DNA from: Candidatus Gastranaerophilales bacterium
GTDB lineage: Bacteria; Cyanobacteriota; Vampirovibrionia; Gastranaerophilales; Gastranaerophilaceae
Direction of reading: 5' to 3'
Length of the DNA: 33,787 bases
NCBI GenBank assembly: GCA_947588755.1
Contig: CANPZB010000016.1
Span: 1 to 33,787 of the forward strand
Program-made: the position numbers and the translations under genes
The notes under the pieces: model-generated
Seen by the model: the letters and a program-made list of their open reading frames with translations, nothing else
The model's database searches: none
Told to the model about the DNA's origin: nothing
Shown: positions 9,105 through 33,312 of the stretch, piece by piece
How positions within the stretch are numbered: the first letter of the stretch is position 1
How the letters are laid out: each line of letters opens with the position of its first letter

Positions 9105-11678
9105 ATGAAAAATCAGGAAATCAATTTTATTAAAACATCTGAAATAAAAGTTGAAGAACTTACCCCTGCCATGCAGGAATATATGAAAATTAAGCATAAA
9201 CATCCCGATAAAATTCTTCTTTACAGATTGGGTGATTTTTTTGAAACATTTTTTGAAGATGCCGTTACAATGTCCAAAGAACTTGAAATTACTTTGACGG
9301 GTCGTGAACAAGGCAAATTCGGCAGAATTCCTCTTGCGGGTATTCCCGTAAAGTCGCTGAATAATTATTTGGAAAAACTTGTTCAAAAAAATTTAAAAGT
9401 TATAATCTGTGACCAGCTTGAAGACCCTAAATACGCTAAAGGTATTGTTAAAAGAGGTGTTACAAGAATTGTTACTTCCGGCACTCTTACGGAAAGCGAT
9501 TTGTTGGAAAAAAATTCCAACAACTACATTTGTTCTGTGTTTAAAGATGAAAAATCGGATGTTTACGGATTTTCTTATGCGGATATTTCCACGGGTGAAT
9601 TTAAAGTTACTCAGGCTCCGCTAAATCTCATTATATCCGAATTGGCAAGAATTTCTCCCGCTGAAGTTATCGGGCCTGCAACAAGAGGTGAAATTAAACC
9701 TTTTCAAATTGTTCCCGAAGAAAAAGTAAATTTGCCCGATGATATTACGCAGATATACAATTGTTCAAAAGTCCCTCAATCAGTTTTTGAAGCGGGTTTT
9801 GCTTTAAACAATTTAAAAGCTGTTTTTAATGCTCAAAGTCTTGAAGCTTTCGGATACAATGACTGCAAAATCGGTTTCAGAGCGGCAGGTGCTTTGCTTG
9901 CTTATGTTTGGGAAACTTTAAAAGAAAACATTCCTAAATTTGAAAAAATTGACCGTTACGAACTCTCCGAATTTATGATGTTAGACGGCAGTACGAGAAA
10001 AAACCTTGAACTTGTCGAAACTTTGCGGGAAAAAAATAAATACGGTTCTTTGCTTTGGGCTTTGGATAATACAAAAACAAATATGGGTGCAAGGCTGTTA
10101 AAAAGCTGGCTTTGTCAGCCGTTAAAAAATGTTAATGACATTCTGAAAAGACAAAATTGTATTTCGGAACTTGTATCAAATAATGAAATAAGAAATTCAA
10201 TGTCATCTTTACTTGAAAATGTTTATGACATTCAGCGTCTTGCAACCAGAATTTCAAATTCTTCCGCCAATCCAAAAGATTTTTTAAGCTTAAAAGCTTC
10301 TTTATCGGTTTTCCCTGAACTGGTCAGAGTTTCATCCGAACTGGAAACCGACCCGTTTGCTTGTGTGAACGAATATGAAAGCGATATAAAAGATTTTGCG
10401 GAACTTATTGACAGAACCATTGCCGAAGATGCTTCCGCTCTTATAAAAGAAGGCGGTATTATAAAGTCGGGAGTTTCGGGTGAACTTGATTATTTCCGTG
10501 AACTTTTAACTGGCGGTGAGGACTGGCTCAGAAAATTTGAAGAAAAAGAAAAAGAAAAAACCGGTATAAAGACTTTGAAAGTCGGATTTAATAAAGTTTT
10601 CGGGTATTTTATAGAAATTTCCAATTCTTATTTGCAATATGTACCGCAAAATTATGTCAGAAAACAAACTCTTACAACGGGTGAGAGGTTTATCGTTGAA
10701 GAATTAAAAAATCATGAAGATGATGTTTTGTCGGCAAAATTCAAGTCAACGGAATTGGAATATAAGCTTTTTACCGATTTTCGCGAATATTCAAAGGAAT
10801 TTGTTTCAAGGTTACGTAAGATAGCTGATGTAATAGCTTGCTGTGATGTTTATACGGGACTTGCACAGACTGCCGTTGAGAATAATTACGTAAAGCCGAT
10901 TATTGATGAATCGGGCGATTTTATTGTGAAAAACGGACGTCATCCTGTATTGGAAAAAATTCTTCCGCTCGGTGAATACGTGCCGAATGATTTGGAATTA
11001 AAATCAAATTCTTCTGATGTAACGCAGTTTATGATTTTAACAGGACCTAACATGGCGGGTAAATCTACATATATGCGTCAAAACGCTTTAATTGCTCTTA
11101 TGGCACAAACAGGTTCGTGGGTGCCTGCGGATTTTGCCAAAATAGGCGTTATAGATAAAATTTTCACGCGTGTCGGTGCATCGGATGATTTAACCCTCGG
11201 TCAGTCAACTTTTATGGTTGAAATGATAGAAACGGCATATATATTAAATTCCGCAACGGACAAAAGTCTTATTTTGCTTGATGAGATAGGACGCGGTACA
11301 AGCACATACGACGGTGTTGCCATTGCATGGTCGGTGGCCGAATTTATTGCGGAAAAAATATGTGCAAGATGTATTTTTGCTACTCATTACCATGAATTAA
11401 ATGTTATGACAAAATCATATCCGCAAATAAAAAATTACAGAATTACTATCAGTGAAGAAAACGGAGAAATTGAATTTTTAAGGAAAATAGTTCAGGGCGG
11501 AGCAAGCAAAAGTTACGGTATTCAGGTTGCTAAAATGGCAGGACTGCCGAACAGTGTAATTAAGCGTTCGCAAGATTTGATGCTTAAAATGCAAAAGGAT
11601 TATTCAAATAACCTATCTTCCAAAAAACGAAGTACCGATACCCCCGAAGTCCCGCAGCTTAATCTGTTTGGTGCATAA
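9105..11678 (+). CDS. mutS: DNA mismatch repair protein MutS
   Basis: An 857-residue MutS that recognises mismatches and starts methyl-independent or methyl-directed repair. The mismatch-reading Phe-x-Glu motif is present as GDFFETF (F45, E47). The connector, lever and clamp domains follow. The ATPase has Walker A GPNMAGKST from residue 647 and Walker B LILLDEIGRGTSTYDG near 725. The extreme C-terminus is QLNLF at 851-855, which fits the consensus beta-clamp-binding pentapeptide. The length is normal for the family. No mutL is next to it. There is no SD, and the promoter geometry suggests a leaderless mRNA. No clear terminator follows in the 198-base gap. Confidence 0.98.
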   Translation: MKNQEINFIKTSEIKVEELTPAMQEYMKIKHKHPDKILLYRLGDFFETFFEDAVTMSKELEITLTGREQGKFGRIPLAGIPVKSLNNYLEKLVQKNLKVIICDQLEDPKYAKGIVKRGVTRIVTSGTLTESDLLEKNSNNYICSVFKDEKSDVYGFSYADISTGEFKVTQAPLNLIISELARISPAEVIGPATRGEIKPFQIVPEEKVNLPDDITQIYNCSKVPQSVFEAGFALNNLKAVFNAQSLEAFGYNDCKIGFRAAGALLAYVWETLKENIPKFEKIDRYELSEFMMLDGSTRKNLELVETLREKNKYGSLLWALDNTKTNMGARLLKSWLCQPLKNVNDILKRQNCISELVSNNEIRNSMSSLLENVYDIQRLATRISNSSANPKDFLSLKASLSVFPELVRVSSELETDPFACVNEYESDIKDFAELIDRTIAEDASALIKEGGIIKSGVSGELDYFRELLTGGEDWLRKFEEKEKEKTGIKTLKVGFNKVFGYFIEISNSYLQYVPQNYVRKQTLTTGERFIVEELKNHEDDVLSAKFKSTELEYKLFTDFREYSKEFVSRLRKIADVIACCDVYTGLAQTAVENNYVKPIIDESGDFIVKNGRHPVLEKILPLGEYVPNDLELKSNSSDVTQFMILTGPNMAGKSTYMRQNALIALMAQTGSWVPADFAKIGVIDKIFTRVGASDDLTLGQSTFMVEMIETAYILNSATDKSLILLDEIGRGTSTYDGVAIAWSVAEFIAEKICARCIFATHYHELNVMTKSYPQIKNYRITISEENGEIEFLRKIVQGGASKSYGIQVAKMAGLPNSVIKRSQDLMLKMQKDYSNNLSSKKRSTDTPEVPQLNLFGA

Positions 11679-11823
11679 TTAATTTTAAATACTTTATAAA
11701 AGAAACTTTGTAATTAAGAACAAGTAAATGTTATGAATTGTAAAGACAAAATACTGTTATGATTATTTTTCCCGTAAAAGTATCATACGATTAACAGGGC
11801 ATGCTTTTTTATGGTAATTAAAT

Positions 11824-11852
11824 TTGCAGTATGTACATTATTATGCTATATT
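11824..11852 (+). promoter_or_regulatory. Predicted promoter of the vWA/FHA/TonB-like operon
   Basis: TTGCAG (11824-11829), a 17-base spacer and TATATT (11847-11852) lie 25 bases before the first start codon, which has the SD-like AGGCAGGA. The 198-base gap after mutS otherwise shows only weak dyads and no obvious gene. Confidence 0.55.
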
Positions 11853-11876
11853 ATTTATATAAAATAAGGCAGGAAT

Positions 11877-12551
11877 ATGAGATTAAACAAAAGACTTATA
11901 ACGATAGGTTTAATAATTCTGATTTTTTCGGTTGTCGGAAAATTTTTATGGATTGGTTTTAAAAAGATTAAAATTGATGAATTCAAGCCTGCTGCAGTAA
12001 TTTTTATGATTGATTCATCGGCTTCAAATCAAAAAAATCTTCCCGAGCATAAAAAAATCCTGAGACAGATATGTAATTTGCTTGACCCTGAGGATCAGAT
12101 TAAAATATTACGTGTTTCCGAAGATGCATATTTGATATACGAAGGCGGACCAATGAACGGAAGCGGTATTACAAAAGCTATGGATGCTTTTACCGTTTAT
12201 GATAACCGCGATTACGGCACGGCTTACGGTTTAGGATTAAAAAAAGCATTCGGTCATGTATTGAGTATGAAAAAATTGGGATATACTCCCGCAATAGTCG
12301 TAATCGGTGACTTGGAAAACGAAGGACAGGTTGATAAACAGATTGATTGGGATACTTTGCCCGAAAATGTTTCTAATGTTAAAAAATATGCTCCGGATAT
12401 GGCTATGATGTTTTTGGGTGCACATCCCGAAAAACTTGATATGGTCAAAGAATTGCTCGGCCCGATATTGGGTGAGCAAAAACTTATCGTTTCACCCGAA
12501 CAAAATACGGATAAAGCAATAAGAAGATTTATTCATGCATTAAACAGGTAA
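11877..12551 (+). CDS. Membrane-anchored von Willebrand factor A (vWA) domain protein
   Basis: A 224-residue protein with an N-terminal membrane segment (about 7-27), then a vWA fold exposed on one side of the membrane. The metal-ion-dependent adhesion site is visible. D46-S48-S50 sits in FMIDSSAS, Thr115 lies in RDYGTAYG and Asp145 in VVIGDLEN, matching the DxSxS...T...D pattern. vWA domains bind protein partners in a divalent-metal-dependent way. It is the first gene of a six-gene operon with an FHA-like membrane protein and TonB-like proteins, so it may be a docking or assembly subunit. That role is inferred only from context. Confidence 0.85.
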   Translation: MRLNKRLITIGLIILIFSVVGKFLWIGFKKIKIDEFKPAAVIFMIDSSASNQKNLPEHKKILRQICNLLDPEDQIKILRVSEDAYLIYEGGPMNGSGITKAMDAFTVYDNRDYGTAYGLGLKKAFGHVLSMKKLGYTPAIVVIGDLENEGQVDKQIDWDTLPENVSNVKKYAPDMAMMFLGAHPEKLDMVKELLGPILGEQKLIVSPEQNTDKAIRRFIHALNR

Positions 12552-12571
12552 ATATATAAGGAAAATTTTAT

Positions 12572-14197
12572 ATGGCAATTATAGTTTCATCTTCCACACA
12601 GGAAAAAATTTTTAATAACGGCGATACAATTAACGTGGGAACAAATCCTAATTGTGATATTGTTCTTAATGTTGATTTTGACGTTTTATTAACGATACAA
12701 TACGATTTTAACGAAGAAAAATGTATAATAATGAACACTTTCCACAGTGACCGTGTTCTTTTCAGAGGGAAACCCGTAAAAAAAGTCGAAGCGGGCAATG
12801 TTTGTAAAATTATGCTTGCGGACAGTAATGAATTTGTGAGTGTTAAAGTCTTGCCCGATGCTTCATCAAATGACTTGAAACAGCCCAAAACCGTTACTTC
12901 AATTCAGGAGCAAGATTTTACCGAGGAGGATTTAAAAGGCTTGTACGGCAAAGATGCAAATGCCGCTACGAAAGTTAAAATTGAAAAACAAAGAAATGAT
13001 ATTGAAAAAAGTCGTGTACCGATTATTAAAGAAGTTTCTTATTCCATAAATGATTTAAAATCCAAAATCTCGGCGAACGCAAAAACAAACTTGTTCCTTC
13101 ATATAGCTATGTTTTTCAGTGCATTAATATGTGCATTCGGAGTTTCTAACTATTTAATGGGATTAAGTATTCAGGAATCGGCAAACTATTTGCATTTGCC
13201 TACTAATATAAAAGCGTGGATTGCTTATACCGTAATTATTTACGGAATATGCCTTATTATGAAACAAGGTGTTTATTTGTATCTTTTGAGTGATATTCAA
13301 AAAGAGTCAAACAAAAATTCTAAACTCGCACAGAGTTTTATGCTGCTTTTTTCATTAATATTCATGCTCGGTATTTATATTGTTAACCTTGTTTATTATA
13401 TGAATTTGAATAATTTTATGACGTTTGCAATATTTATATCCTTTTTCTTCTCGGGTATAATGTCCGTACTCGCAATAAGCTGCGGTTATTTCAAGTGCAA
13501 CGGTACGGAATGGTCTGCAGAATTAAATAAATACGAGTACAGAGAAGATTTTGAAGGAGTTATTAAATCTTACAGACAGTGGATTGAACGCTATATTAAC
13601 AGTTTAAGCAATACTAAATTACAATATATTAAAGACAGAATGTTCAATTTACAGCTTAAATCTGTCGGGGAAACAATTATAGGTATTTTAACCGCTCCGT
13701 TTCTGGCTTACGGTGTTTCGAATACTCTCGCAATGTGTTTTCCGGAAGCCGCAGGCTGGATAAGAATTTCAGGATTAAGAATAAGTCCTGTTTTTCTGAC
13801 TTTGGCTACTTTTCTCATTATATTTGCGTTTTTCTCGTTTGTTAATACATTCCTTTGTACCAAGAAAATTCAGGGTTCACAGGTGATAAAACAAGACGGA
13901 TTTAGTGATTATCAGCATCATGGTGTTACTATTTACGGATTGGAAGGCGTAAGAAGGCTTAATTCCGAAAAAGTGCGTTCCATGTCGATAGCATGTTCAA
14001 TTATATTTATTGAATTTGCAATGAATATTTCATATTTTATGACTGAAATCGGCGGTGATTTGCAGGGGATGTTCTTGAGTTTTGTTGCGGCTCTTGTTCC
14101 GACTGCTCTTTTAATCGCCGAAACTTTAATGTTAAGTCAGACTAAATTTGATATTTATGCTTGTGATGAATTACTTGCTAAAGTTGATAAAGATTAG
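12572..14197 (+). CDS. FHA-like domain fused to a polytopic membrane protein
   Basis: A 541-residue protein. Residues 1-95 resemble a small beta-sandwich of FHA type: GDTINVGTNPNCDIVL matches the position of the FHA GR-S loop, but the Arg and Ser are missing, so phosphothreonine binding is doubtful. A charged linker (100-165) leads to eight probable membrane segments, about 172-198, 213-238, 254-277, 282-304, 367-390, 405-428, 468-490 and 499-521. A cytosol-sized charged loop of about 60 residues (308-366) lies between the fourth and fifth. The SD is AAGGAAA and the gap to the vWA gene is 20 bases. I know no named family with this architecture. In the operon it is the obvious inner-membrane core. 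Confidence 0.8.
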   Translation: MAIIVSSSTQEKIFNNGDTINVGTNPNCDIVLNVDFDVLLTIQYDFNEEKCIIMNTFHSDRVLFRGKPVKKVEAGNVCKIMLADSNEFVSVKVLPDASSNDLKQPKTVTSIQEQDFTEEDLKGLYGKDANAATKVKIEKQRNDIEKSRVPIIKEVSYSINDLKSKISANAKTNLFLHIAMFFSALICAFGVSNYLMGLSIQESANYLHLPTNIKAWIAYTVIIYGICLIMKQGVYLYLLSDIQKESNKNSKLAQSFMLLFSLIFMLGIYIVNLVYYMNLNNFMTFAIFISFFFSGIMSVLAISCGYFKCNGTEWSAELNKYEYREDFEGVIKSYRQWIERYINSLSNTKLQYIKDRMFNLQLKSVGETIIGILTAPFLAYGVSNTLAMCFPEAAGWIRISGLRISPVFLTLATFLIIFAFFSFVNTFLCTKKIQGSQVIKQDGFSDYQHHGVTIYGLEGVRRLNSEKVRSMSIACSIIFIEFAMNISYFMTEIGGDLQGMFLSFVAALVPTALLIAETLMLSQTKFDIYACDELLAKVDKD

Positions 14198-14205
14198 ATT
14201 AATAT

Positions 14206-15057
14206 ATGAATGCACTTAAAATATTTACGATAATTTTATTTGTTCTTCTTACAAGTATTGTACTGGCAATTCGTCCCGGTATGCATCAGCCTGTAATTAT
14301 TGAGAATGAAGATTTCAAAATTTACAGGGAAAGCGATACGCTTAATTATAAAGACTATGTGAATGTTCAGCCCGAAAATACGGTTGTTGCTAAAAATGTG
14401 CAGGTTAATGTCCAGCCGCAAACTGAAACTGTTAATAAATATGTTGACTCGAAATCCGATGTCGGGAAAGTTAATGAAAAACGTGTTAACATTGATAATC
14501 AGACGGGCGGAAAAGCCGCAAAAAATAATGACAGTCAGCTGGAAATTTTGCAAAGAATTATTAAAAACACCGAAAATCAACCGAGTAAACCTGATGTTGT
14601 TACCCCTGATATCACTCCTAAGCCTAAAGAAGTCAAGCCGCAGCCTGAAAAAACGGTTGCTGCCAAAAAAAATGAAAATCCTTATATGACCGAGGAGGAA
14701 GAAATAATCGCATGGAATAAATGGCGAAGCAATATTCAAAATTATATAATGAAAAACAGCGGGCCGTTTGATGCTCCTATAGGCACTATTTTTTCTTTTT
14801 CCTGTGTTGTTGATAAATTCGGAAATGTTTCCAATATTAAAGTTATGTCATCAAATCCTAACTATATGACTTTTGCCAAAAATAATATAAAACCCGTAAT
14901 TGCAGGACTTCAAAATAAACCGCTGCTTAATTTTCCTCGCGGAACAAAGAGAACTACAACGGTTTTTACGGGATTTTTCGCAATTTCGGTTGTTGAAAGA
15001 TATTCGACTCCCGAAGATTACCATGATTTTGAAAGGATTATAAAATATGTTCAATAG
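14206..15057 (+). CDS. TonB-like periplasmic-spanning protein
   Basis: A 283-residue protein with an N-terminal membrane anchor (about 4-22), a long polar linker and a Pro/Lys-rich segment at about 127-155 (KPKEVKPQPEKTV). A globular C-terminal domain at about 168-283 resembles the TonB C-terminal fold (FSFSCVVDKFGNVSNIKV then a helix and final strands). TonB-type proteins transmit inner-membrane energy to outer-membrane partners. No ExbB or ExbD is in this window, so the partner may be the membrane protein encoded just upstream. The start lies 8 bases past the upstream stop without a clear SD. The last 11 bases overlap a small downstream gene. Confidence 0.75.
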   Translation: MNALKIFTIILFVLLTSIVLAIRPGMHQPVIIENEDFKIYRESDTLNYKDYVNVQPENTVVAKNVQVNVQPQTETVNKYVDSKSDVGKVNEKRVNIDNQTGGKAAKNNDSQLEILQRIIKNTENQPSKPDVVTPDITPKPKEVKPQPEKTVAAKKNENPYMTEEEEIIAWNKWRSNIQNYIMKNSGPFDAPIGTIFSFSCVVDKFGNVSNIKVMSSNPNYMTFAKNNIKPVIAGLQNKPLLNFPRGTKRTTTVFTGFFAISVVERYSTPEDYHDFERIIKYVQ

Positions 15058-15196
15058 ACGTATACTTGCTGTTTTGGTACTTTTTATACTTATTTTTGTT
15101 ATTTCGACTCTGGCTATAATTGCTTTGAAACCTGAAATGCATAAAAAATTTATACCTCAAATAATAATTATTAAAAAAGAGGTTAACAAAAACTAA
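15047..15196 (+). CDS. Very small single-pass membrane protein (49 aa)
   Basis: A 49-codon reading frame starts MFNRRILAVLVLF, has one hydrophobic segment (about residues 6-27) and a basic tail ending KKEVNKN. It begins inside the end of the TonB-like gene (11-base overlap). Its TAA shares a base with the ATG of the next gene (TAATG), so it is tightly sandwiched. This arrangement and the clean transmembrane profile support a real gene. The function is unknown; its size would suit a small subunit of a membrane complex. Confidence 0.7.
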   Translation: MFNRRILAVLVLFILIFVISTLAIIALKPEMHKKFIPQIIIIKKEVNKN

Positions 15197-15396
15197 TGTT
15201 AAAGTTTTATCATGCAATTATATTTTTGCTGTTCGCTGCTCTTGAAATACCTTTGATTTTTAAGTTTGTAAAATACGGCAGAAATTACGAATTTATCCGC
15301 CAAATTTCAGTCGTAATATTAATGATTTTAACCGCATTAATAATGTTCGGTGTTTATAAAACAGGTTTATTTTTTACGAAATTTGTAGTAAGGTAA
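15196..15396 (+). CDS. Small two-pass membrane protein (66 aa)
   Basis: A 66-residue protein with two hydrophobic segments (about 5-24 and 37-58) joined by a short basic loop (KFVKYGRNYEFIRQ). Both termini would be on the same side. The ATG overlaps the stop of the 49-residue gene by one base and the zinc-ribbon TonB-like gene starts 8 bases downstream. I do not recognise a family. It sits centrally in the six-gene membrane operon, which is the only clue to its job. Confidence 0.7.
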   Translation: MLKFYHAIIFLLFAALEIPLIFKFVKYGRNYEFIRQISVVILMILTALIMFGVYKTGLFFTKFVVR

Positions 15397-15404
15397 ATAT
15401 TATA

Positions 15405-16271
15405 ATGTTTATATGCAAAGAATGTAATGCCGAATATGATGAAAAACCCGATTACTGCTTATGCGGTAACAATACTTTTGAATATATAAAAGTTAAAAAA
15501 TCAAAATTTTCAAATAAAGCAGTTATTGAAAAGATTTTGAAAAATAAAAATGATATTTTATCTGTTTTGTTTTTTTTAATTTGTTTGTTCTTTTCAATCT
15601 ACATCTGGCTGTTTGCTGGAAATTCACTTATCAAAGAACAGATAAATACTTCCGTTAAACCTAAAGCTGAAAAAAAACAGGTTATTCCCGATATAAATTC
15701 GATATGGAAAGAAAAAATGCATACCGAAACCGTTATCGATACAAATGTTCAGCAGAATGGTGTTTATCCTTATCAGGAAACTTTGAAATTAAATTTACCT
15801 GTTGAAAGAGTAACCAAACCTGTGAAAATGACAGAAACCAAACCTGTTCCCAAAAATAATGTTTCTAAACCCGCACCTTCACCCAAACCCGTACAAAAGC
15901 CTAAAAATACAAATCCCGCAAATGTTTCGCCCAAAAACGATAAAGTTTTGATTAAAAGTTATAACCCGAATGACCCAGAATTATTAAGATATAAAAGTGC
16001 TTTGAGAAGTGCTTTGTTTTCAAAATTTGCTGTCGGGAGCATTCAAGGCGGAGGTACATGCATTATAGAATTTACGATTAATACCGAAACGGGTAAACTT
16101 GAAAACAGAAGATTTGTACAAAAATCCGATAATAAACAACTTAATGATGCAATTTATTATATGTTAATGAGTGTTCCTCACTTTGCTGTTCCGCCCGAAA
16201 GTTACGGCGGGGAAAAAATACGAATGAAGTTCTTTTTAAACAGCGGTTATTATGAGGTAAGTTTTATTTAA
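15405..16271 (+). CDS. Zinc-ribbon-headed TonB-like protein
   Basis: A 288-residue protein. Residues 1-25 form a short zinc-ribbon-like Cys cluster (Cys4, Cys7, Cys18, Cys20) that would be cytoplasmic. A membrane segment (about 51-71) follows, then a Pro/Lys-rich spacer (about 90-185, with repeated KP and PK pairs) and a C-terminal TonB-like domain (about 195-288, with CIIEFTINTETGKLENRRF). Placing a zinc ribbon on the inner side of a TonB-like protein is unusual. It is the last gene of the operon and its final 8 bases overlap the end of a convergent gene that also encodes a TonB-like domain. Confidence 0.75.
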   Translation: MFICKECNAEYDEKPDYCLCGNNTFEYIKVKKSKFSNKAVIEKILKNKNDILSVLFFLICLFFSIYIWLFAGNSLIKEQINTSVKPKAEKKQVIPDINSIWKEKMHTETVIDTNVQQNGVYPYQETLKLNLPVERVTKPVKMTETKPVPKNNVSKPAPSPKPVQKPKNTNPANVSPKNDKVLIKSYNPNDPELLRYKSALRSALFSKFAVGSIQGGGTCIIEFTINTETGKLENRRFVQKSDNKQLNDAIYYMLMSVPHFAVPPESYGGEKIRMKFFLNSGYYEVSFI

Positions 16272-17004
16272 CTTTAAAATTGAAATCTAATATAATAACC
16301 AGTTCCGCATTAAAAAATGTATCGGGGAAAGGTTGAAAAGGTGCAGCCGCTCTTATGGCTTTTGTTGCGTTATCATCAAGTTCTTTGATTTTAGATGACT
16401 TTATTATGGTGCAATTTTTTATAAAACCTGTATCGTTAAGTGTTAAAGCAACTTGGACTGGTACTTCTTTTTTGCCGTTCAAAAGAATTGATATGCGTTT
16501 TTTGTCGGGTTCTTTCCAGTTTTTCTTAACTTTTTCTCTGACAATTTTTACATAGGGTTCATAGTTAACATATTTACCGTTTTTATCGAATATAAAGATG
16601 TCTGATTTTGTTTGATATACTTGAATTGCAGCGAGTTCACCCGATGGATAGTCATATAGTATTCTGCAATTCGGGCATTCATTTTTTTTGTAAGAAATAA
16701 ATTTTAGTTCGTTTGTATCTTTATTAAAAATTAATTCAACGTTGTTGTATTTTACATAATAATAGTTAGGATTTTGTGTATCATCGGAGTTTATGCAGGT
16801 AAAATCATGATAAAATTTCGGATACTTATCAGTTTTAACTTTTGTTTTTACTTTATCAAACAATATTGATACCGAGTTGTTAACTTCTTCGTAATATTTT
16901 GTGTCGGCGGAATTGAGTTTTTGCGGCTCAATTTTTTCTGCGGCATAAACACTTAGCTGACATGTCAGTAACATTAATGAAAGCAGTAAAATTAATTTTT
17001 TCAT
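16264..17004 (-). CDS. Secreted TonB-C-terminal-like protein
   Basis: A 246-residue protein with a clear signal peptide (MKKLILLLSLMLLTCQLSVYA then A-E). A central domain of about 130 residues contains CPNCRILYDYPSGELAAIQVY. The C-terminal TonB-like domain is at about 165-246 (VQVALTLNDTGFIKNCTIIKSS, then DDNATKAIRAAAPFQPFP). I chose the start at 17004 because it has an SD (GGAGAG) and begins the signal peptide; an upstream ATG at 17145 would add a non-conserved 47-residue tail. It has no membrane anchor or Pro-rich spacer, unlike the two TonB-like proteins of the convergent operon, with which it overlaps by 8 bases. Confidence 0.8.
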   Translation of the reverse strand: MKKLILLLSLMLLTCQLSVYAAEKIEPQKLNSADTKYYEEVNNSVSILFDKVKTKVKTDKYPKFYHDFTCINSDDTQNPNYYYVKYNNVELIFNKDTNELKFISYKKNECPNCRILYDYPSGELAAIQVYQTKSDIFIFDKNGKYVNYEPYVKIVREKVKKNWKEPDKKRISILLNGKKEVPVQVALTLNDTGFIKNCTIIKSSKIKELDDNATKAIRAAAPFQPFPDTFFNAELVIILDFNFKVK

Positions 17005-17172: not shown

Positions 17173-19302
17173 ATGAATATAAATAAAAAAATTTTATCGG
17201 CGGTAATGATTATATCGCAGTTTTTTACAATGCAAATATGTTTTGCAAATGAGCAGGTAACGCCGTTTTATAAATATCCAGATTATTCGTATATGTTCAA
17301 CGGAAATGACAAGTTCGAAAAATTTAACAGAAAAGTTTTTAAACTTAACAACAAATTTAACAAATATGCACTTCGCCCCATTCATACGGTATGGACGTCA
17401 ATTCTTCCCGAATATGTCATTGACAGAATACATTCGGCTACTTTAAATATTGAATATCCTATCAGACTCATAAGCACACTTATACAGCGGGATTTTAAAT
17501 CTGCGGGAACGGAAACCGTCAGATTTGCGGCAAATACAACGGTAGGACTCGGCGGGCTTTATGACCCCGCAAAAAGTGTTTTCAAAATTGAGCCTGTATC
17601 CGAAAATATGGAGCAGGCACTTGCAAAATGCCATGTAAAACAAGGTCCTTATATGGTTGTTCCAGTAATATCTTCTACAAGTCCGAGAAACATTACGGGA
17701 AGAATTTTCGATACCGCTTTAAATCCGTCATCTTACATTGCTACTCCTATACTTGCTATGATTAAAGCGGGACTTTTTATCAACAAAAGTTATACTTTTC
17801 AGCCTTTAGTTAAAATGGTGGAATCTAATTTTGCCGATCCTTATGATATTGCCAGAAAAATATACGGAATTGATAACTATATAAAATGCACAAATTTAGA
17901 CAGAAAGAAAAACCTTTTTGATGCCATTAATGCCCAAAATAGTGAAAATACCGAGGAAACCGTAAATAATACCGATAATTCCGGGTTGAATATATTTAAT
18001 GCTTCAAATGAAAATTCCGAAAAAGAGTTAACGGTTAGTGACATTATAAAAGGCGGTGCAAGCATAGATAACCTTATTTTAAAAAGTTATAATACGGACA
18101 ATGCAAATCTTCTGGCTGATATAGTTTTGTTTGATTACAAGCCTCAATCGCCCATTGTGGATGCCATGCGAACTGTTTTATTTGATTTTCCCGAGATAAA
18201 CAATTCGATATGGTCTGAAATTTCTTTATGGAACAGAAGTTTTAGCAGAAGAATAAAAACATCCTCAATAAACATGTTTGAAGGACGTGAAAATTACAAA
18301 TTCAGATATATACTTCAAAAAGACAAAAATTCACCGCTTGCGATTATATATCCGTCAATAGGTGAAAGTATGTCATCACATCACTCGGTTGTGCTTGCAA
18401 AGTTATTTTATGATGAAGGGTATTCTGTTGTCATGCCGGGAAGCCATTTTCAGTGGGAATTTGTAAAGAGTATGCCTGATGATTACAGACCCGGTATTCC
18501 TTCCAAAGATGCCGAACTGCTCCATACATTAACCGTTAAAATGGTCGAAAGCCTTCAAAACAAATACTCTTGCCAATTCGGCGATAAGGTAGTTATAGGG
18601 ACTTCTTTCGGAGCAATGATGACAATGTTTATTGCGGATATTGAATCCCGTAACAATATGCTCGGCAATGCAAAATTTATATCAATTAATCCGCCGATAG
18701 AACTTCTTTATGCAATGCGTCAGATAGATAAAAATAATGAGGATTGGAATAAAAGACCATACGGTTTAAAAGAAAAAGCGGGGCTTGCTGCGGCAAAAGT
18801 TCTTTATTTTTACAACAATATGGAAAAAATAGCTGATAATTCGGATAATATTAATTTACCCGTTACGGATGAGGAAGGAAAATTGATTACAGGTTTTATA
18901 ATGCATCAAAAACTGTCCGATTTGATTTATACAATTGAACATGGGGCAGAATCAAAAAATCCCGAGAAAATTTATGCAATGATTAACAATATGAATTTTG
19001 AAGATTATGCAAAAAAATATCTTTTGTCCGATGAAAACAATTCAACAGATAATTTAAGCAGTGTCACAAGTTTATGGCAAATAAAAGATTATCTGCAAAA
19101 TAACGACAATTATAAAATTTATCATACACTCGATGACTATCTTGTCAACGGCAAACAACTGAAAGAACTAAAGTCTTATACTGGAAACAAAACCGTTTTG
19201 TTCAGTAACGGTTCTCATCTGGGTTGTTTATACAGAAAAGAATTTTTAGACGAATTAAAAAAAGATATTACATTAACAAAAGAACTCGCCGCAGTTCAAT
19301 AA
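17173..19302 (+). CDS. MlaA-like domain fused to an alpha/beta-hydrolase-like domain
   Basis: A 709-residue exported protein (signal peptide about 1-25, with no convincing lipobox). Residues 38-240 match the MlaA/VacJ pattern: FEKFNRKVFKLNNKFNKYALRPI, RFAANTTVGLGGLYDP, MEQALAKCHVKQGPYMVVPV. MlaA removes stray phospholipids from the outer leaflet of the outer membrane. After an Asn-rich linker (about 245-290), the second half looks like an alpha/beta hydrolase. It has IIYPSIGES, the nucleophile elbow GTSFG (Ser478) and a late His682 in NGSHLG that could complete a triad. MlaA is normally a single-domain lipoprotein of about 250 residues. The fusion suggests coupling of lipid removal to lipid hydrolysis, which is inference. 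The SD is GATGAGG. Confidence 0.8.
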   Translation: MNINKKILSAVMIISQFFTMQICFANEQVTPFYKYPDYSYMFNGNDKFEKFNRKVFKLNNKFNKYALRPIHTVWTSILPEYVIDRIHSATLNIEYPIRLISTLIQRDFKSAGTETVRFAANTTVGLGGLYDPAKSVFKIEPVSENMEQALAKCHVKQGPYMVVPVISSTSPRNITGRIFDTALNPSSYIATPILAMIKAGLFINKSYTFQPLVKMVESNFADPYDIARKIYGIDNYIKCTNLDRKKNLFDAINAQNSENTEETVNNTDNSGLNIFNASNENSEKELTVSDIIKGGASIDNLILKSYNTDNANLLADIVLFDYKPQSPIVDAMRTVLFDFPEINNSIWSEISLWNRSFSRRIKTSSINMFEGRENYKFRYILQKDKNSPLAIIYPSIGESMSSHHSVVLAKLFYDEGYSVVMPGSHFQWEFVKSMPDDYRPGIPSKDAELLHTLTVKMVESLQNKYSCQFGDKVVIGTSFGAMMTMFIADIESRNNMLGNAKFISINPPIELLYAMRQIDKNNEDWNKRPYGLKEKAGLAAAKVLYFYNNMEKIADNSDNINLPVTDEEGKLITGFIMHQKLSDLIYTIEHGAESKNPEKIYAMINNMNFEDYAKKYLLSDENNSTDNLSSVTSLWQIKDYLQNNDNYKIYHTLDDYLVNGKQLKELKSYTGNKTVLFSNGSHLGCLYRKEFLDELKKDITLTKELAAVQ

Positions 19303-19932: not shown

Positions 19933-20916
19933 ATGTATGTAAACAAGTGTATCAAGTGTGGTCGTGAGTTTGAAACAAAAAACCCCAAAAGAGTTATTTG
20001 TCCTGATTGTCTTTATCCCGATAAAAAAATGATGATTTCTCAGGACGATTCTCAAACGGAAGTGAAAAATACGGCTCAGGAAGCTGTTTTTGAAGCACAG
20101 GAAGGTTTTGCAAAAACGGAAGAACCCCCGCGTTATTACAGTGCCGGCGGTAACGAACAACAGGATTACAGCCGTAATCAAAGAGCATATAACCAGAATA
20201 ATTATCAACGTGATAACAGACAAGGCGGGTATAACCGCGGAGGTTACAATAATCGTCAGGGTAACAACAGGCAGGGCGGTTATAATCGTTTTAATAATCG
20301 TCAGGGCGGTTATCAAAACAGGCCTCAACAGGGCGGTTTTAACAAGGGCGGATTTCAAAACAGACGTCCTCAGCAGGGCGGTTTCAATAAAGGCGGATTT
20401 AATAAGCGTCATGCAGGCAAAAGCAAGGCTCCGAAACAACTTCTTGTCAGCAAGGAGCAGCTTGAACAAATTGAAATGCTCTATAAGCTTATGCTTCCTT
20501 TACCAAATCCCGATTGTCATGAAACTATCGGCGAAAAAATCGGGCTTGAACCGAGAAAAGTTTTCTTCGGTATTAATTTAGTCAGACAAAAGCTTATGCT
20601 TCCAAAATTACCCTTCCCAAAACGTAAATTGGCTATTTCTCCGGACCAGCTTTTTGCAATTAAGAACTTATATGAACCTTTACTTCCGCTGCCTCCTATC
20701 GGTTGCCATAAAATTATTGCGGCACAACTCAAAATGGATGAGTGGCGTGTCCATGTCGGTATAGGTTTAATTCGTTCTCAAATGGGGCTTCAGCGTTGGA
20801 ATGAGGACAGACCTGATGTACCGGAAGAATTTAAAAAGAAGGATACTGATGCCGCTGCTGATGGTGCAAAAGAAAAGAAAACAAAGCGTAAAAAATCTGA
20901 AACTGCGGAAGAATAG
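19933..20916 (+). CDS. Zinc-ribbon, RGG-like linker and duplicated C-terminal domain protein
   Basis: A 327-residue protein. Cys6-Cys9 and Cys23-Cys26 form a zinc ribbon of the CxxC type. Residues 75-160 are a disordered Gly/Asn/Arg/Gln-rich stretch with about eight NRQGGY- or QGGFNKGGF-like repeats, as in RNA-binding RGG proteins. Two copies of a domain of about 56 residues follow (172-227 and 233-288), sharing S-x-x-QL-x-x-I-x-x-LY-x-x-(L/M)LPLP-x-x-x-CH and GI-x-L(I/V)R. The tail is Lys-rich. I recognise no family for the duplicated domain. It is followed directly by rimM and trmD (ATG right after TAG), so a role in ribosome or tRNA work is plausible from context. The SD is AGAGGCT. Confidence 0.8.
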   Translation: MYVNKCIKCGREFETKNPKRVICPDCLYPDKKMMISQDDSQTEVKNTAQEAVFEAQEGFAKTEEPPRYYSAGGNEQQDYSRNQRAYNQNNYQRDNRQGGYNRGGYNNRQGNNRQGGYNRFNNRQGGYQNRPQQGGFNKGGFQNRRPQQGGFNKGGFNKRHAGKSKAPKQLLVSKEQLEQIEMLYKLMLPLPNPDCHETIGEKIGLEPRKVFFGINLVRQKLMLPKLPFPKRKLAISPDQLFAIKNLYEPLLPLPPIGCHKIIAAQLKMDEWRVHVGIGLIRSQMGLQRWNEDRPDVPEEFKKKDTDAAADGAKEKKTKRKKSETAEE

Positions 20917-27756: not shown

Positions 27757-28656
27757 ATGAAAAAAGAAATTAAAAACGTGACTATTTTGGAAAAGAAAGT
27801 GAGACTCGAACATGCTAAGATCCTGAAACAAGTTCAGGATGACAGTTTGATTAAAAACGACGGGGCCGAAAAGACAGTGAGACCTGAAAATGGTAAGACC
27901 CTGAAACAAGTTCAGGGTGACATGTGTGGGGTTCAGGATGACATGGGGTGGTTCAGGCGTGGTTTTGGTGCTTTAGCACCCGAAAAGAACCTTTCACTTT
28001 ACACTTCTCACCTTTCACGTAAATCAGCATTCACATTGGCTGAGGTGTTAATCACCCTAGGTATCATCGGCATTGTGGCGGCAATGACCATGCCGACACT
28101 TATTGCAAAAATACAAAGGAATATCTTAAATAATCAGTTTAAAAAGATGTATTCCGTATTAACTACAGCTTTTCAAAAAACAAATTTTGAAATGGACTTT
28201 TTTAACGGTTGCTATTATATTCAGGGGCAAGGTAGTCCTGCAGATTACTCAGGTTGCAAAGATTTTTTTTATAATCATCTTTCAAAAAATCTGAATGTTG
28301 CAAAAATTTGTGATACAAAAGCTTATGAAAACGGTTGTGCACCCGATTATGATTGGAGTAGCTTTCCTTCTGACGGGTGTGAAGGCGGTTTTACATCCGA
28401 TAAAGTTAAAAATAATGGTGCAATAGTCTTAAATGACGGGAGTATTTTATATCTTTTAAATAATGCTGCCATGATAGCATCTGATATTAACGGCAAAAAA
28501 GGACCTAATAAACCGGGATTTGATGTTTATTCATATAAAATATACAGAGTAGGAAGTAATCTGATTTTGAACCCTCCTATTTATGAAGAACGTTCAATAG
28601 TTACACAATGTATGCCTAACGCCGGCGGTGTTCGTTACTATGATGAAATTAAATAA
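27757..28656 (+). CDS. Prepilin-like secreted protein with a repeat-built leader
   Basis: A 299-codon gene for a type IV pilin/pseudopilin-like protein. The prepilin peptidase site is SAFTLAE: cleavage before Phe92 would leave a mature protein of 208 residues with the hydrophobic helix FTLAEVLITLGIIGIVAAM and a Cys-containing globular part (Cys at about 155, 165, 185, 193). The C-terminal pattern IVLNDGSILYLL and DINGKKGPNKPGFDVY is typical of this group. Leaders are usually under about 30 residues; this one is 91, and residues 20-61 are translations of palindromic repeats (KILKQVQDD, KTLKQVQGD, GVQDDM). The distal ATG has a strong SD (AAAGGAAC), but an ATG at 27943, behind AGGATG, would give a normal 28-residue leader. 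Confidence 0.85.
   Translation: MKKEIKNVTILEKKVRLEHAKILKQVQDDSLIKNDGAEKTVRPENGKTLKQVQGDMCGVQDDMGWFRRGFGALAPEKNLSLYTSHLSRKSAFTLAEVLITLGIIGIVAAMTMPTLIAKIQRNILNNQFKKMYSVLTTAFQKTNFEMDFFNGCYYIQGQGSPADYSGCKDFFYNHLSKNLNVAKICDTKAYENGCAPDYDWSSFPSDGCEGGFTSDKVKNNGAIVLNDGSILYLLNNAAMIASDINGKKGPNKPGFDVYSYKIYRVGSNLILNPPIYEERSIVTQCMPNAGGVRYYDEIK
27820..27840 (+). repeat. Palindromic repeat copy 3, inside the prepilin leader
   Basis: A 21-base perfect-stem unit with core CCTGAAACAAGTTCAGG, followed by GACA. It is read in frame as residues of the leader (ILKQVQD). Confidence 0.9.
27898..27918 (+). repeat. Palindromic repeat copy 4, inside the prepilin leader
   Basis: The same unit with the stem changed to ACCC/GGGT, followed by GACATG. 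It is read as TLKQVQG. A half copy, GTTCAGGATGACATG, follows at 27931-27945 and supplies an alternative ATG with an upstream AGGA. Confidence 0.9.
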
Positions 28657-32209: not shown

Positions 32210-32242
32210 ATAGGTCGAGTTTTACCCTACCTATAAGTTTTT
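32210..32242 (+). terminator. Probable terminator after the FkbM gene
   Basis: ATAGGT (32210-32215) pairs with ACCTAT (32229-32234), followed by AAG and a run of six T reaching the stop codon of the convergent prepilin gene. The stem is short, so strength is moderate. Confidence 0.5.
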
Positions 32243-33312
32243 TATTCGTGTAAGTAATTCAATTTCCCGTTTTGAATAATTGAAGCTGAACATCCCCATC
32301 CGTATGCATTTAAGTGACAGTCATCCTCCGGTATCGGAATTATTCTGTTTGGTTGAAGAAAAAATGAAAAAGTATCCTTGCCTATAGTGTTCGGATTTTT
32401 TTTACCGTTTACATCAACAAACAATACCCCGCAAACATTTTCAACAGGGATTTTGCCCCCTCCTGCCATATCTTTAGAACATATCCCCCTATCATTAACT
32501 CTACCCCAAAAATATGTACCGTCAGCAAGAATTGCTTTTGCGTATTTCGTCAATGTTTCATAATTATTACCAGCTTCACCGTTCAAAGCACGATATTGAA
32601 CATTTGACAAACAACCGGACTTATCACCGCAATACTTCGATATTTTAAGATAGGGAACAAGGTATTGTTCAAACATATTATTAGCAGAGTAAATCTTATT
32701 TTCTTCGTCATATTGCGTAATATTCCATTCATTAACAGGACCGTTATCTTTTATTGAAAGCATTAAAGCCTGACTCATAACCGAATAAAACTTCTTTACT
32801 TTAGAAACCGCAATATGTTCCTGATATTTTTGAATTAATGACGGCAAAGTCATAGCCGCCACAACGCCAATAATTCCGAGGGTGATTAAAACCTCTGCAA
32901 GGGTGAATGCGGCTCTACGTTTGTTGTGTTGCCGGGCTACGTGCGTAGCACCCTCTGCAAGGGTGAAACCGAATTTTCGGTAGGGTGCCGTGTGAGCGAT
33001 AGCGAACCCAACCCGTGAGGTGGAGCGGGACGTTACTCCCGCGACAACCCGAATAATTCGGGAAGCGGCTCTACGTGAAAAGTGAGAAGTGAGGGTATCT
33101 TTGGGTGAAAAGTGAAAGGTGAGAGGTGAAAAGACCTTATCGGCACTTCGTGCAAAATAATTGGCCGGATTGCTTCGCATTCGCTCGCAATGACGAGACA
33201 CCTCCATGTCATCCAGAACAAACATGTCATGCTGAACTTGTTTCAGCATCTTAGCCTTGTCGGGTCTTACAGTCTTTTCCAAAATCGTTGTATTTTTAAT
33301 TCTTTCTTTCAT
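32242..33312 (-). CDS. Prepilin-like secreted protein with a 135-residue mosaic leader
   Basis: A 356-codon gene for a second pilin/pseudopilin-like protein. The true site is RRAAFTLAEVLITLGIIG, so cleavage before Phe136 leaves 221 residues with Cys pairs (CGDKSGC, CSKD, CGV, DDCH, WGCS) and DVNGKKNPNTIGKDTF. The leader's first 30 residues (MKERIKNTTILEK, VRPDKAKMLKQVQHD) match the first prepilin. The rest translates at least three other repeat types, including an in-frame decoy FGFTLAE 20 codons before the real one. No ATG lies within about 90 codons of the real site, so the long leader must be translated unless a non-ATG start is used. The SD is AAGGAGAA. It is divergent from an Xre gene. 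Confidence 0.83.
   Translation of the reverse strand: MKERIKNTTILEKTVRPDKAKMLKQVQHDMFVLDDMEVSRHCERMRSNPANYFARSADKVFSPLTFHFSPKDTLTSHFSRRAASRIIRVVAGVTSRSTSRVGFAIAHTAPYRKFGFTLAEGATHVARQHNKRRAAFTLAEVLITLGIIGVVAAMTLPSLIQKYQEHIAVSKVKKFYSVMSQALMLSIKDNGPVNEWNITQYDEENKIYSANNMFEQYLVPYLKISKYCGDKSGCLSNVQYRALNGEAGNNYETLTKYAKAILADGTYFWGRVNDRGICSKDMAGGGKIPVENVCGVLFVDVNGKKNPNTIGKDTFSFFLQPNRIIPIPEDDCHLNAYGWGCSASIIQNGKLNYLHE
32909..33076 (-). repeat. 156-base in-frame segment bounded by 12-base direct repeats
   Basis: GCGGCTCTACGT occurs at 32909-32920 and 33065-33076. The offset is 156 bases (52 codons), so frame is kept. Inside are hairpins GCGGGA/TCCCGC (33025-33042), CCCGAATAATTCGGG (33048-33062) and ACCGAA/TTCGGT, and a second copy of CCTCTGCAAGGGTGAA (32952-32967, first copy 32892-32907). 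Confidence 0.8.
33166..33196. repeat. GGATTGCTTCGC / GCTCGCAATGACG-type repeat
   Basis: ATTGC (33169-33173) and GCAAT (33187-33191) bracket a GC-rich centre, followed by GACGAG. This is a common type of dispersed bacterial palindrome. Here it is translated as SRHCERMRSNPA within the second prepilin leader. Confidence 0.75.
33229..33249 (-). repeat. Palindromic repeat copy 5, inside the second prepilin leader
   Basis: The unit with core GCTGAACTTGTTTCAGC and flanks AT/AT. The C-G pair of the other copies is replaced by G-C, keeping the stem. It is translated as MLKQVQH on the minus strand. Confidence 0.9.

Follow-up and report, generated by a model that had tools for sequence, protein, structure and literature searches.

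The 33,787-nucleotide contig CANPZB010000016.1 of Candidatus Gastranaerophilales bacterium (assembly GCA_947588755.1, family Gastranaerophilaceae; contig G000:C16, this whole stretch being hereafter called the window) carries at positions 11,877 to 17,004 a compact group of envelope genes which, with moderate confidence, can be read as encoding a trans-envelope complex of the Ton/Tol kind, specific to Gastranaerophilaceae and organised around a protein with eight transmembrane (TM) helices. The genome carrying the window is 1.83 Mb and 99.8% complete. The genes are designated vWA, tm8 (the 8-TM protein), tonA, m49, m66, znT and secT. The first six lie on the plus strand, with gaps of 20 bp between vWA and tm8 and of 8 bp between both tm8 and tonA and m66 and znT, and with overlaps of 11 bp (tonA/m49) and 1 bp (m49/m66); secT is encoded on the minus strand and converges on znT with an 8-bp overlap. 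This layout agrees with the original prediction, made from the letters of the window, of six plus-strand genes that are overlapping or separated by at most 20 bases and meet a convergent gene.

The gene order recurs widely in relatives. Homologues of tm8 were found in 101 of 146 genomes of the same family, 97 of them full length and four restricted to the FHA part. In 79 full-length tm8 loci, to which the gene-order counts refer, vWA stands immediately 5′ of tm8 in 76 (median gap 19 bp) and tonA immediately 3′ in 74 (median gap 2 bp), an order that persists at tm8 identities as low as 37%; the co-location of these three genes is beyond chance. A znT-family gene is close by in 66 loci, and m49 follows tonA in 52 of the 66 loci that could be scored for it. 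m66 is present between m49 and znT in about half of the loci of close relatives (L031-L091) and in none of the more distant loci, and secT in 26 loci; both are optional and lie outside the constant core. In addition, many genomes carry a second, diverged paralogous cassette, in some cases reduced to vWA, tm8 and one TonB-like gene. From these counts and the reduced second cassettes it follows that the core consists of vWA and tm8 together with one or more TonB-like arms, and that the six-gene set is a fuller version of it. The expectation that the order would be kept in related genomes was thus borne out for vWA-tm8-tonA and, in most loci, for m49 and znT as well, not for m66 and secT, and the notion of a single six-part machine narrows to this core rather than six equal parts. 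We infer that the cassette products form one complex and that its arms reach the outer membrane.

Strong tm8 matches are confined to the family of the window among the 386 genomes of the phylum that were searched, the sole match outside the family spanning the FHA part only. The cassette is Gastranaerophilaceae-specific, in that it occurs in no other bacterial family among those searched. A defence function was rejected, PADLOC returning no match, as was a mobile or plasmid origin, with no plasmid match and a single IMG/VR match. In the latter contig (L142), some 2 kb separate vWA-tm8-tonA from a gene that probably encodes a serine recombinase; the presence of this recombinase-like gene beside the cassette makes it probable that the contig is the bacterial flank of a prophage. 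A literature search for TonB in Gastranaerophilales/Melainabacteria found nothing relevant.

The product of tm8 (12572-14197, plus strand; 541 amino acids) has a degenerate FHA domain (residues ~1-95), a linker and eight TM helices, and its AlphaFold2 model has a predicted local distance difference test (pLDDT) score of 82. Residues 1-95 adopt the FHA beta-sandwich fold and match FHA domains in Foldseek (6ccd, TMt 0.75, probability 1.00, E 2.6e-3), the top 22 PDB matches being nearly all of this type, in support of the FHA-like call made originally. When the alignment of tm8 homologues was read by eye, the Arg/Ser/Asn residues that bind phosphothreonine were missing, the canonical GR position being mostly GT or GS with no conserved Ser-Arg after it, which suggests that docking by this domain is probably phospho-independent. 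Stand-alone 99-amino-acid proteins resembling the FHA part exist in one genus (L104 5539-5838, L105 5798-6097, L106 6021-6320), adjoining what looks like a gene set for TolC/HlyD/MFS efflux. The two halves of the tm8 membrane part align with each other (hhalign P 1.7e-4, against 0.31 for the reversed control), with P reaching only 0.022 when the halves were trimmed further; this suggests a 4+4 TM duplication, the case being good and not conclusive. Two acidic residues, E481 and E517, are invariant in the alignment and fall inside predicted TM7 and TM8. tm8 matched no Pfam family and no PDB sequence family, and DUF4271 and other Pfam matches obtained by single homologues were taken as chance.

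The putative arms are encoded by tonA and znT. tonA (14206-15057, plus strand; 283 amino acids) comprises a TM anchor, a P-x-M-H-K-type motif, a disordered linker and a C-terminal domain with a predicted TonB/TolA fold. No relevant Pfam match was obtained with 19 tonA homologues; residues 160-283 were modelled mostly at pLDDT >90, and the top 13 Foldseek PDB matches of this domain are all TonB/TolA/HasB/FusB C-terminal domains, a uniform list at modest E-values (best 4e-3). znT (15405-16271, plus strand; 288 amino acids) presents a cytoplasmic CxxC...CxCGN cluster, a TM segment, a Pro/Lys linker and a TonB_C domain, with a Pfam TonB_2 score of 24.9 bits against a cut-off of 22 and the same family matched by 16 of 18 homologues. 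tonA aligns with the znT profile (hhalign P 9e-4), and both proteins fit the TonB/TolA transducer plan of one N-terminal TM helix, a disordered or Pro-rich linker and a TonB/TolA-fold C-terminus. The N-terminal cysteines of znT (C4, C7, C18 and C20) are invariant across homologues, and the cluster would be expected to bind zinc. The third TonB-like protein, secT (16264-17004, minus strand; 246 amino acids), combines a signal peptide with a soluble TonB_C domain (TonB_C match 5.4e-9); its signal-peptide ATG is at 17004, and a TTG-started frame extends to 17145. The three TonB-like calls and the cytoplasmic cysteine cluster of the original prediction therefore stand, tonA by its predicted fold, znT by TonB_2 and secT by TonB_C.

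Of the two microproteins, m49 (15047-15196, plus strand) consists of a single TM segment plus PxMHK. When its profile was compared with tonA N-termini, hhalign gave Prob 96.7 and P 3.3e-10, against 3e-4, 1e-2 and 0.25 in the controls, and by this comparison m49 is identified as a stand-alone paralogue of the tonA membrane anchor with which it shares PxMHK. m66 (15196-15396, plus strand) has two TM segments and is accessory.

vWA (11877-12551, plus strand; 224 amino acids) has an N-terminal TM anchor followed by a vWA domain with a complete metal ion-dependent adhesion site (MIDAS: D46xS48xS50, T115, D145). The window protein matches Pfam VWA_2 at 1.7e-5, and 20 of 21 homologues match Pfam (best 1.5e-11). 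In the alignment D46 and S48 are invariant and S50, T115 and D145 are conserved at >=90%, which confirms the MIDAS recognised in the original prediction. The short positive N-terminus preceding the TM anchor indicates that the domain is probably periplasmic. Neither His nor Asp is found in the vWA TM segments inspected, and TolQ is not among the recurrent cassette neighbours.

A further gene provides the best hint, by analogy, that the cassette may be a Ton/Tol-like system. A secreted TrbI/VirB10 C-terminal-like protein (PF03743, 4.7e-6, under Pfam's own cut-off) is encoded near the cassette in 45 loci, directly 5′ of vWA or tm8 in many of them and elsewhere mostly 0.3-2 kb off, and the same family lies directly 5′ of tonB-exbB-exbD-exbD in all nine operons examined, including that of this genome. 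TrbI/VirB10-type domains build outer-membrane channels in type IV secretion. The gene is not in the window; its orthologue is on contig C72 (L140 130-1011), about 130 bp from the contig end, and MutS (window 9105-11877) is encoded directly 5′ of vWA. MutS was rejected as a cassette partner, mutS being found in no related locus; its position next to the cassette, together with the location of the TrbI-like orthologue close to the end of a contig, may reflect a rearrangement or possibly an assembly mis-join. Outer-membrane partners, whose co-occurrence was raised in the original prediction, were identified in part only: TonB-dependent receptors were not found (PF00593 gave no match in this genome, control genomes being positive), and the TrbI-like secreted protein is encoded 5′ in many relatives.

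To our knowledge, the characterised machines driving TonB- or TolA-like arms are powered by a motor of the ExbB/TolQ type, and the energy source of the putative complex is where the possible explanations diverge. In the reading preferred here tm8, perhaps via E481/E517, would move or energise the arms, rather than the housekeeping ExbB-ExbD. Several findings weigh against it. This genome encodes tonB-exbB-exbD-exbD outside the window (contig G000:C59; L116 2944-7223), so that tm8 is not the only conceivable energy source: the lack of ExbB/ExbD noted originally is correct for the window, whereas the genome has ExbB, two ExbD and TonB elsewhere, and the original claim that the energy must derive from the 8-TM protein is not supported as it was put. 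Moreover, no outer-membrane barrel is consistently linked to the cassette, and about one third of the sampled family genomes are devoid of tm8, which is thus not essential to all. Kinship of tm8 with ExbB/MotA was rejected (hhalign P 0.31-0.33, with neither family in the Foldseek top 50), and nothing convincing for the TM part appeared among the top 50 Foldseek matches. With no ExbB/MotA sequence similarity and no solved structure matching the TM part, a motor role is unproven, and the specific proposal that tm8 is a new ion-driven inner-membrane motor, unrelated to ExbB/TolQ/MotA and powering TonB-like arms, is regarded as doubtful. tm8 might itself be an energising platform, or the complex might be a tether. 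Additional MotA/ExbB-family genes are present in 25 of 97 genomes with tm8 versus 32 of 49 without it (Fisher 5.5e-6, for related samples and not tree-corrected), a negative association to be taken as a lead only.

It could be argued that the housekeeping ExbB-ExbD drives tonA and znT as additional TonB/TolA proteins, with tm8 and vWA as regulators or assembly factors. ExbB is indeed encoded by 144 of 146 family genomes, among them almost every genome with tm8, this genome has the complete operon, and a TrbI-like gene precedes both cassette and Ton operon. The sole ExbB-family gene of this genome lies away from the cassette. However, no ExbB/ExbD or TolQR-type family is among the recurrent neighbours in the 79 loci. 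In addition, an S...H motif at the start of the TM helix is kept in nine ExbB-partnered TonB proteins of family genomes, whereas the TM histidine (SHLS-type motif, which docks on ExbB/TolQ) was found in none of 52 tonA homologues scored and in none of the full-length znT TM segments inspected (L094 being mis-segmented). The missing motif argues that tonA and znT are not coupled to ExbB/ExbD in the usual way, and this explanation is considered unlikely. The Ton operons themselves (G000:C59, L129-L134, L138 and L139) usually comprise two TrbI-like secreted proteins, TonB, ExbB, ExbD and ExbD, followed in L138 and L139 by an open reading frame of 1,087-1,121 amino acids that may be AsmA/TamB-like.

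Somewhat less likely still, tm8 could be a transporter or export channel for which the vWA, TonB-like and TrbI-like proteins form a periplasmic conduit to the outer membrane. The duplicated 4+4 TM architecture is typical of transporters and domains of the TrbI/VirB10 type (type IV secretion outer-membrane channel) adjoin the cassette in many relatives, but no ATPase or outer-membrane channel gene is constantly linked, and tm8 matches no transporter by Pfam, PDB sequence or fold; membership of a known, unrelated transporter family, which the original prediction had named as telling against it, was accordingly not found. A passive or sensory tether, whose vWA and TonB-like domains report the envelope state via FHA and the Cys cluster with no energy input, is the least probable alternative. 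In its favour are these signalling-type cytoplasmic modules and the stand-alone FHA-only homologues of one genus; against it are an FHA domain devoid of the usual phosphothreonine-binding residues and the lack of any constantly linked kinase, phosphatase or regulator.

The preferred reading of a complex built on tm8 draws support from the close and recurrent vWA-tm8-tonA order, kept at low identity and repeated in the second cassettes, from the TonB/TolA fold of tonA, TonB_2 in znT, the FHA fold of tm8 and the MIDAS, from the TrbI-like gene shared with the Ton operons, from the missing S...H motif of tonA and znT, and from the conserved acids in predicted TM7/TM8. In such a complex tm8 would serve as the inner-membrane platform, with the FHA domain on its cytoplasmic side to dock other proteins. 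tonA and znT would be membrane-tethered arms; their TonB/TolA-type domains would be borne across the periplasm on long Pro/Lys linkers and could bind strands of partners, either at the outer membrane or on the TrbI-like secreted protein. m49 would act as a bare tonA-type anchor, perhaps paired with the tonA TM helix, and vWA as a metal-dependent docking site in the periplasm, while the znT cysteine cluster would allow the cytoplasm to read or control the arm.

The cassette may work like several known systems, by analogy, and is assigned to none of them. With the Ton system it shares anchored arms with a linker and a TonB-fold C-terminal domain, as well as the TrbI-like neighbour of the family's own Ton operon; it differs in having no ExbB/ExbD, in the missing TM His motif of tonA and znT, in a genome devoid of TonB-dependent receptors and in an unrelated 8-TM protein at the position that the proton motor holds in known machines of this type. 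TolA-like C-terminal folds, a likely non-transport role and two OmpA-domain proteins encoded elsewhere in this genome recall Tol-Pal (TolQRA-TolB-Pal), whereas TolQ/TolR are lacking from the cassette and the FHA, vWA and Cys-cluster modules are extra. The parts list is also similar to that of the Agl-Glt gliding machinery of Myxococcus xanthus, a likeness of descriptions. GltJ has a cytoplasmic zinc ribbon. GltG consists of FHA plus TonB_C (PMC3169522), and both GltG and GltJ are TolA/TonB-like (PMC5349195). In the cassette, however, FHA is fused to the 8-TM protein and not to TonB_C, and no AglRQS (TolQR-type) motor is among the recurrent neighbours. Finally, membrane-tethered vWA proteins have been proposed in a survey as force transducers in TonB/TolA-like machines (PMC12204202, section 8), these bearing either an SHLS motif and a linker or, beside TolQ, a pore helix that contains Asp (PMC12204202). 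The cassette vWA is likewise membrane-tethered, but has neither SHLS nor a pore-helix Asp and adjoins tm8 instead of TolQ.

Other features of the window were also recorded. A plus-strand gene at 17173-19302 encodes an MlaA domain (PF04333, 3e-44) and, after it, some 480 residues that match nothing in Pfam but contain GTSFG, a motif recalling alpha/beta hydrolases; in 25 loci a protein of this fusion size again lies 3′ of the cassette. At 27757-28656 and 32242-33312 two pilin-like proteins are encoded whose leaders read FTLAEVLITLGIIG(I/V)VAAMT, similar genes recurring around many related loci, and a 327-amino-acid protein (19933-20916) has a CxxC cluster at its N-terminus and repeats rich in Asn/Arg/Gln/Gly. 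The promoter scan, which gave 33 sites where 27.6 were expected, was uninformative.

In summary, the cassette would pair TonB-like arms with an 8-TM protein that is apparently duplicated and unrelated to known motors, and would represent either another type of motor or a bridge between the two membranes that works without energy; should the motor reading of tm8 prove true, trans-envelope force transduction would have been invented a second time. A TrbI-like protein, likely associated with Ton/Tol functions, is added to this picture. The cassette thereby offers a handle on the envelope biology of gut-dwelling, non-photosynthetic relatives of cyanobacteria that are known mainly from assembled genomes.
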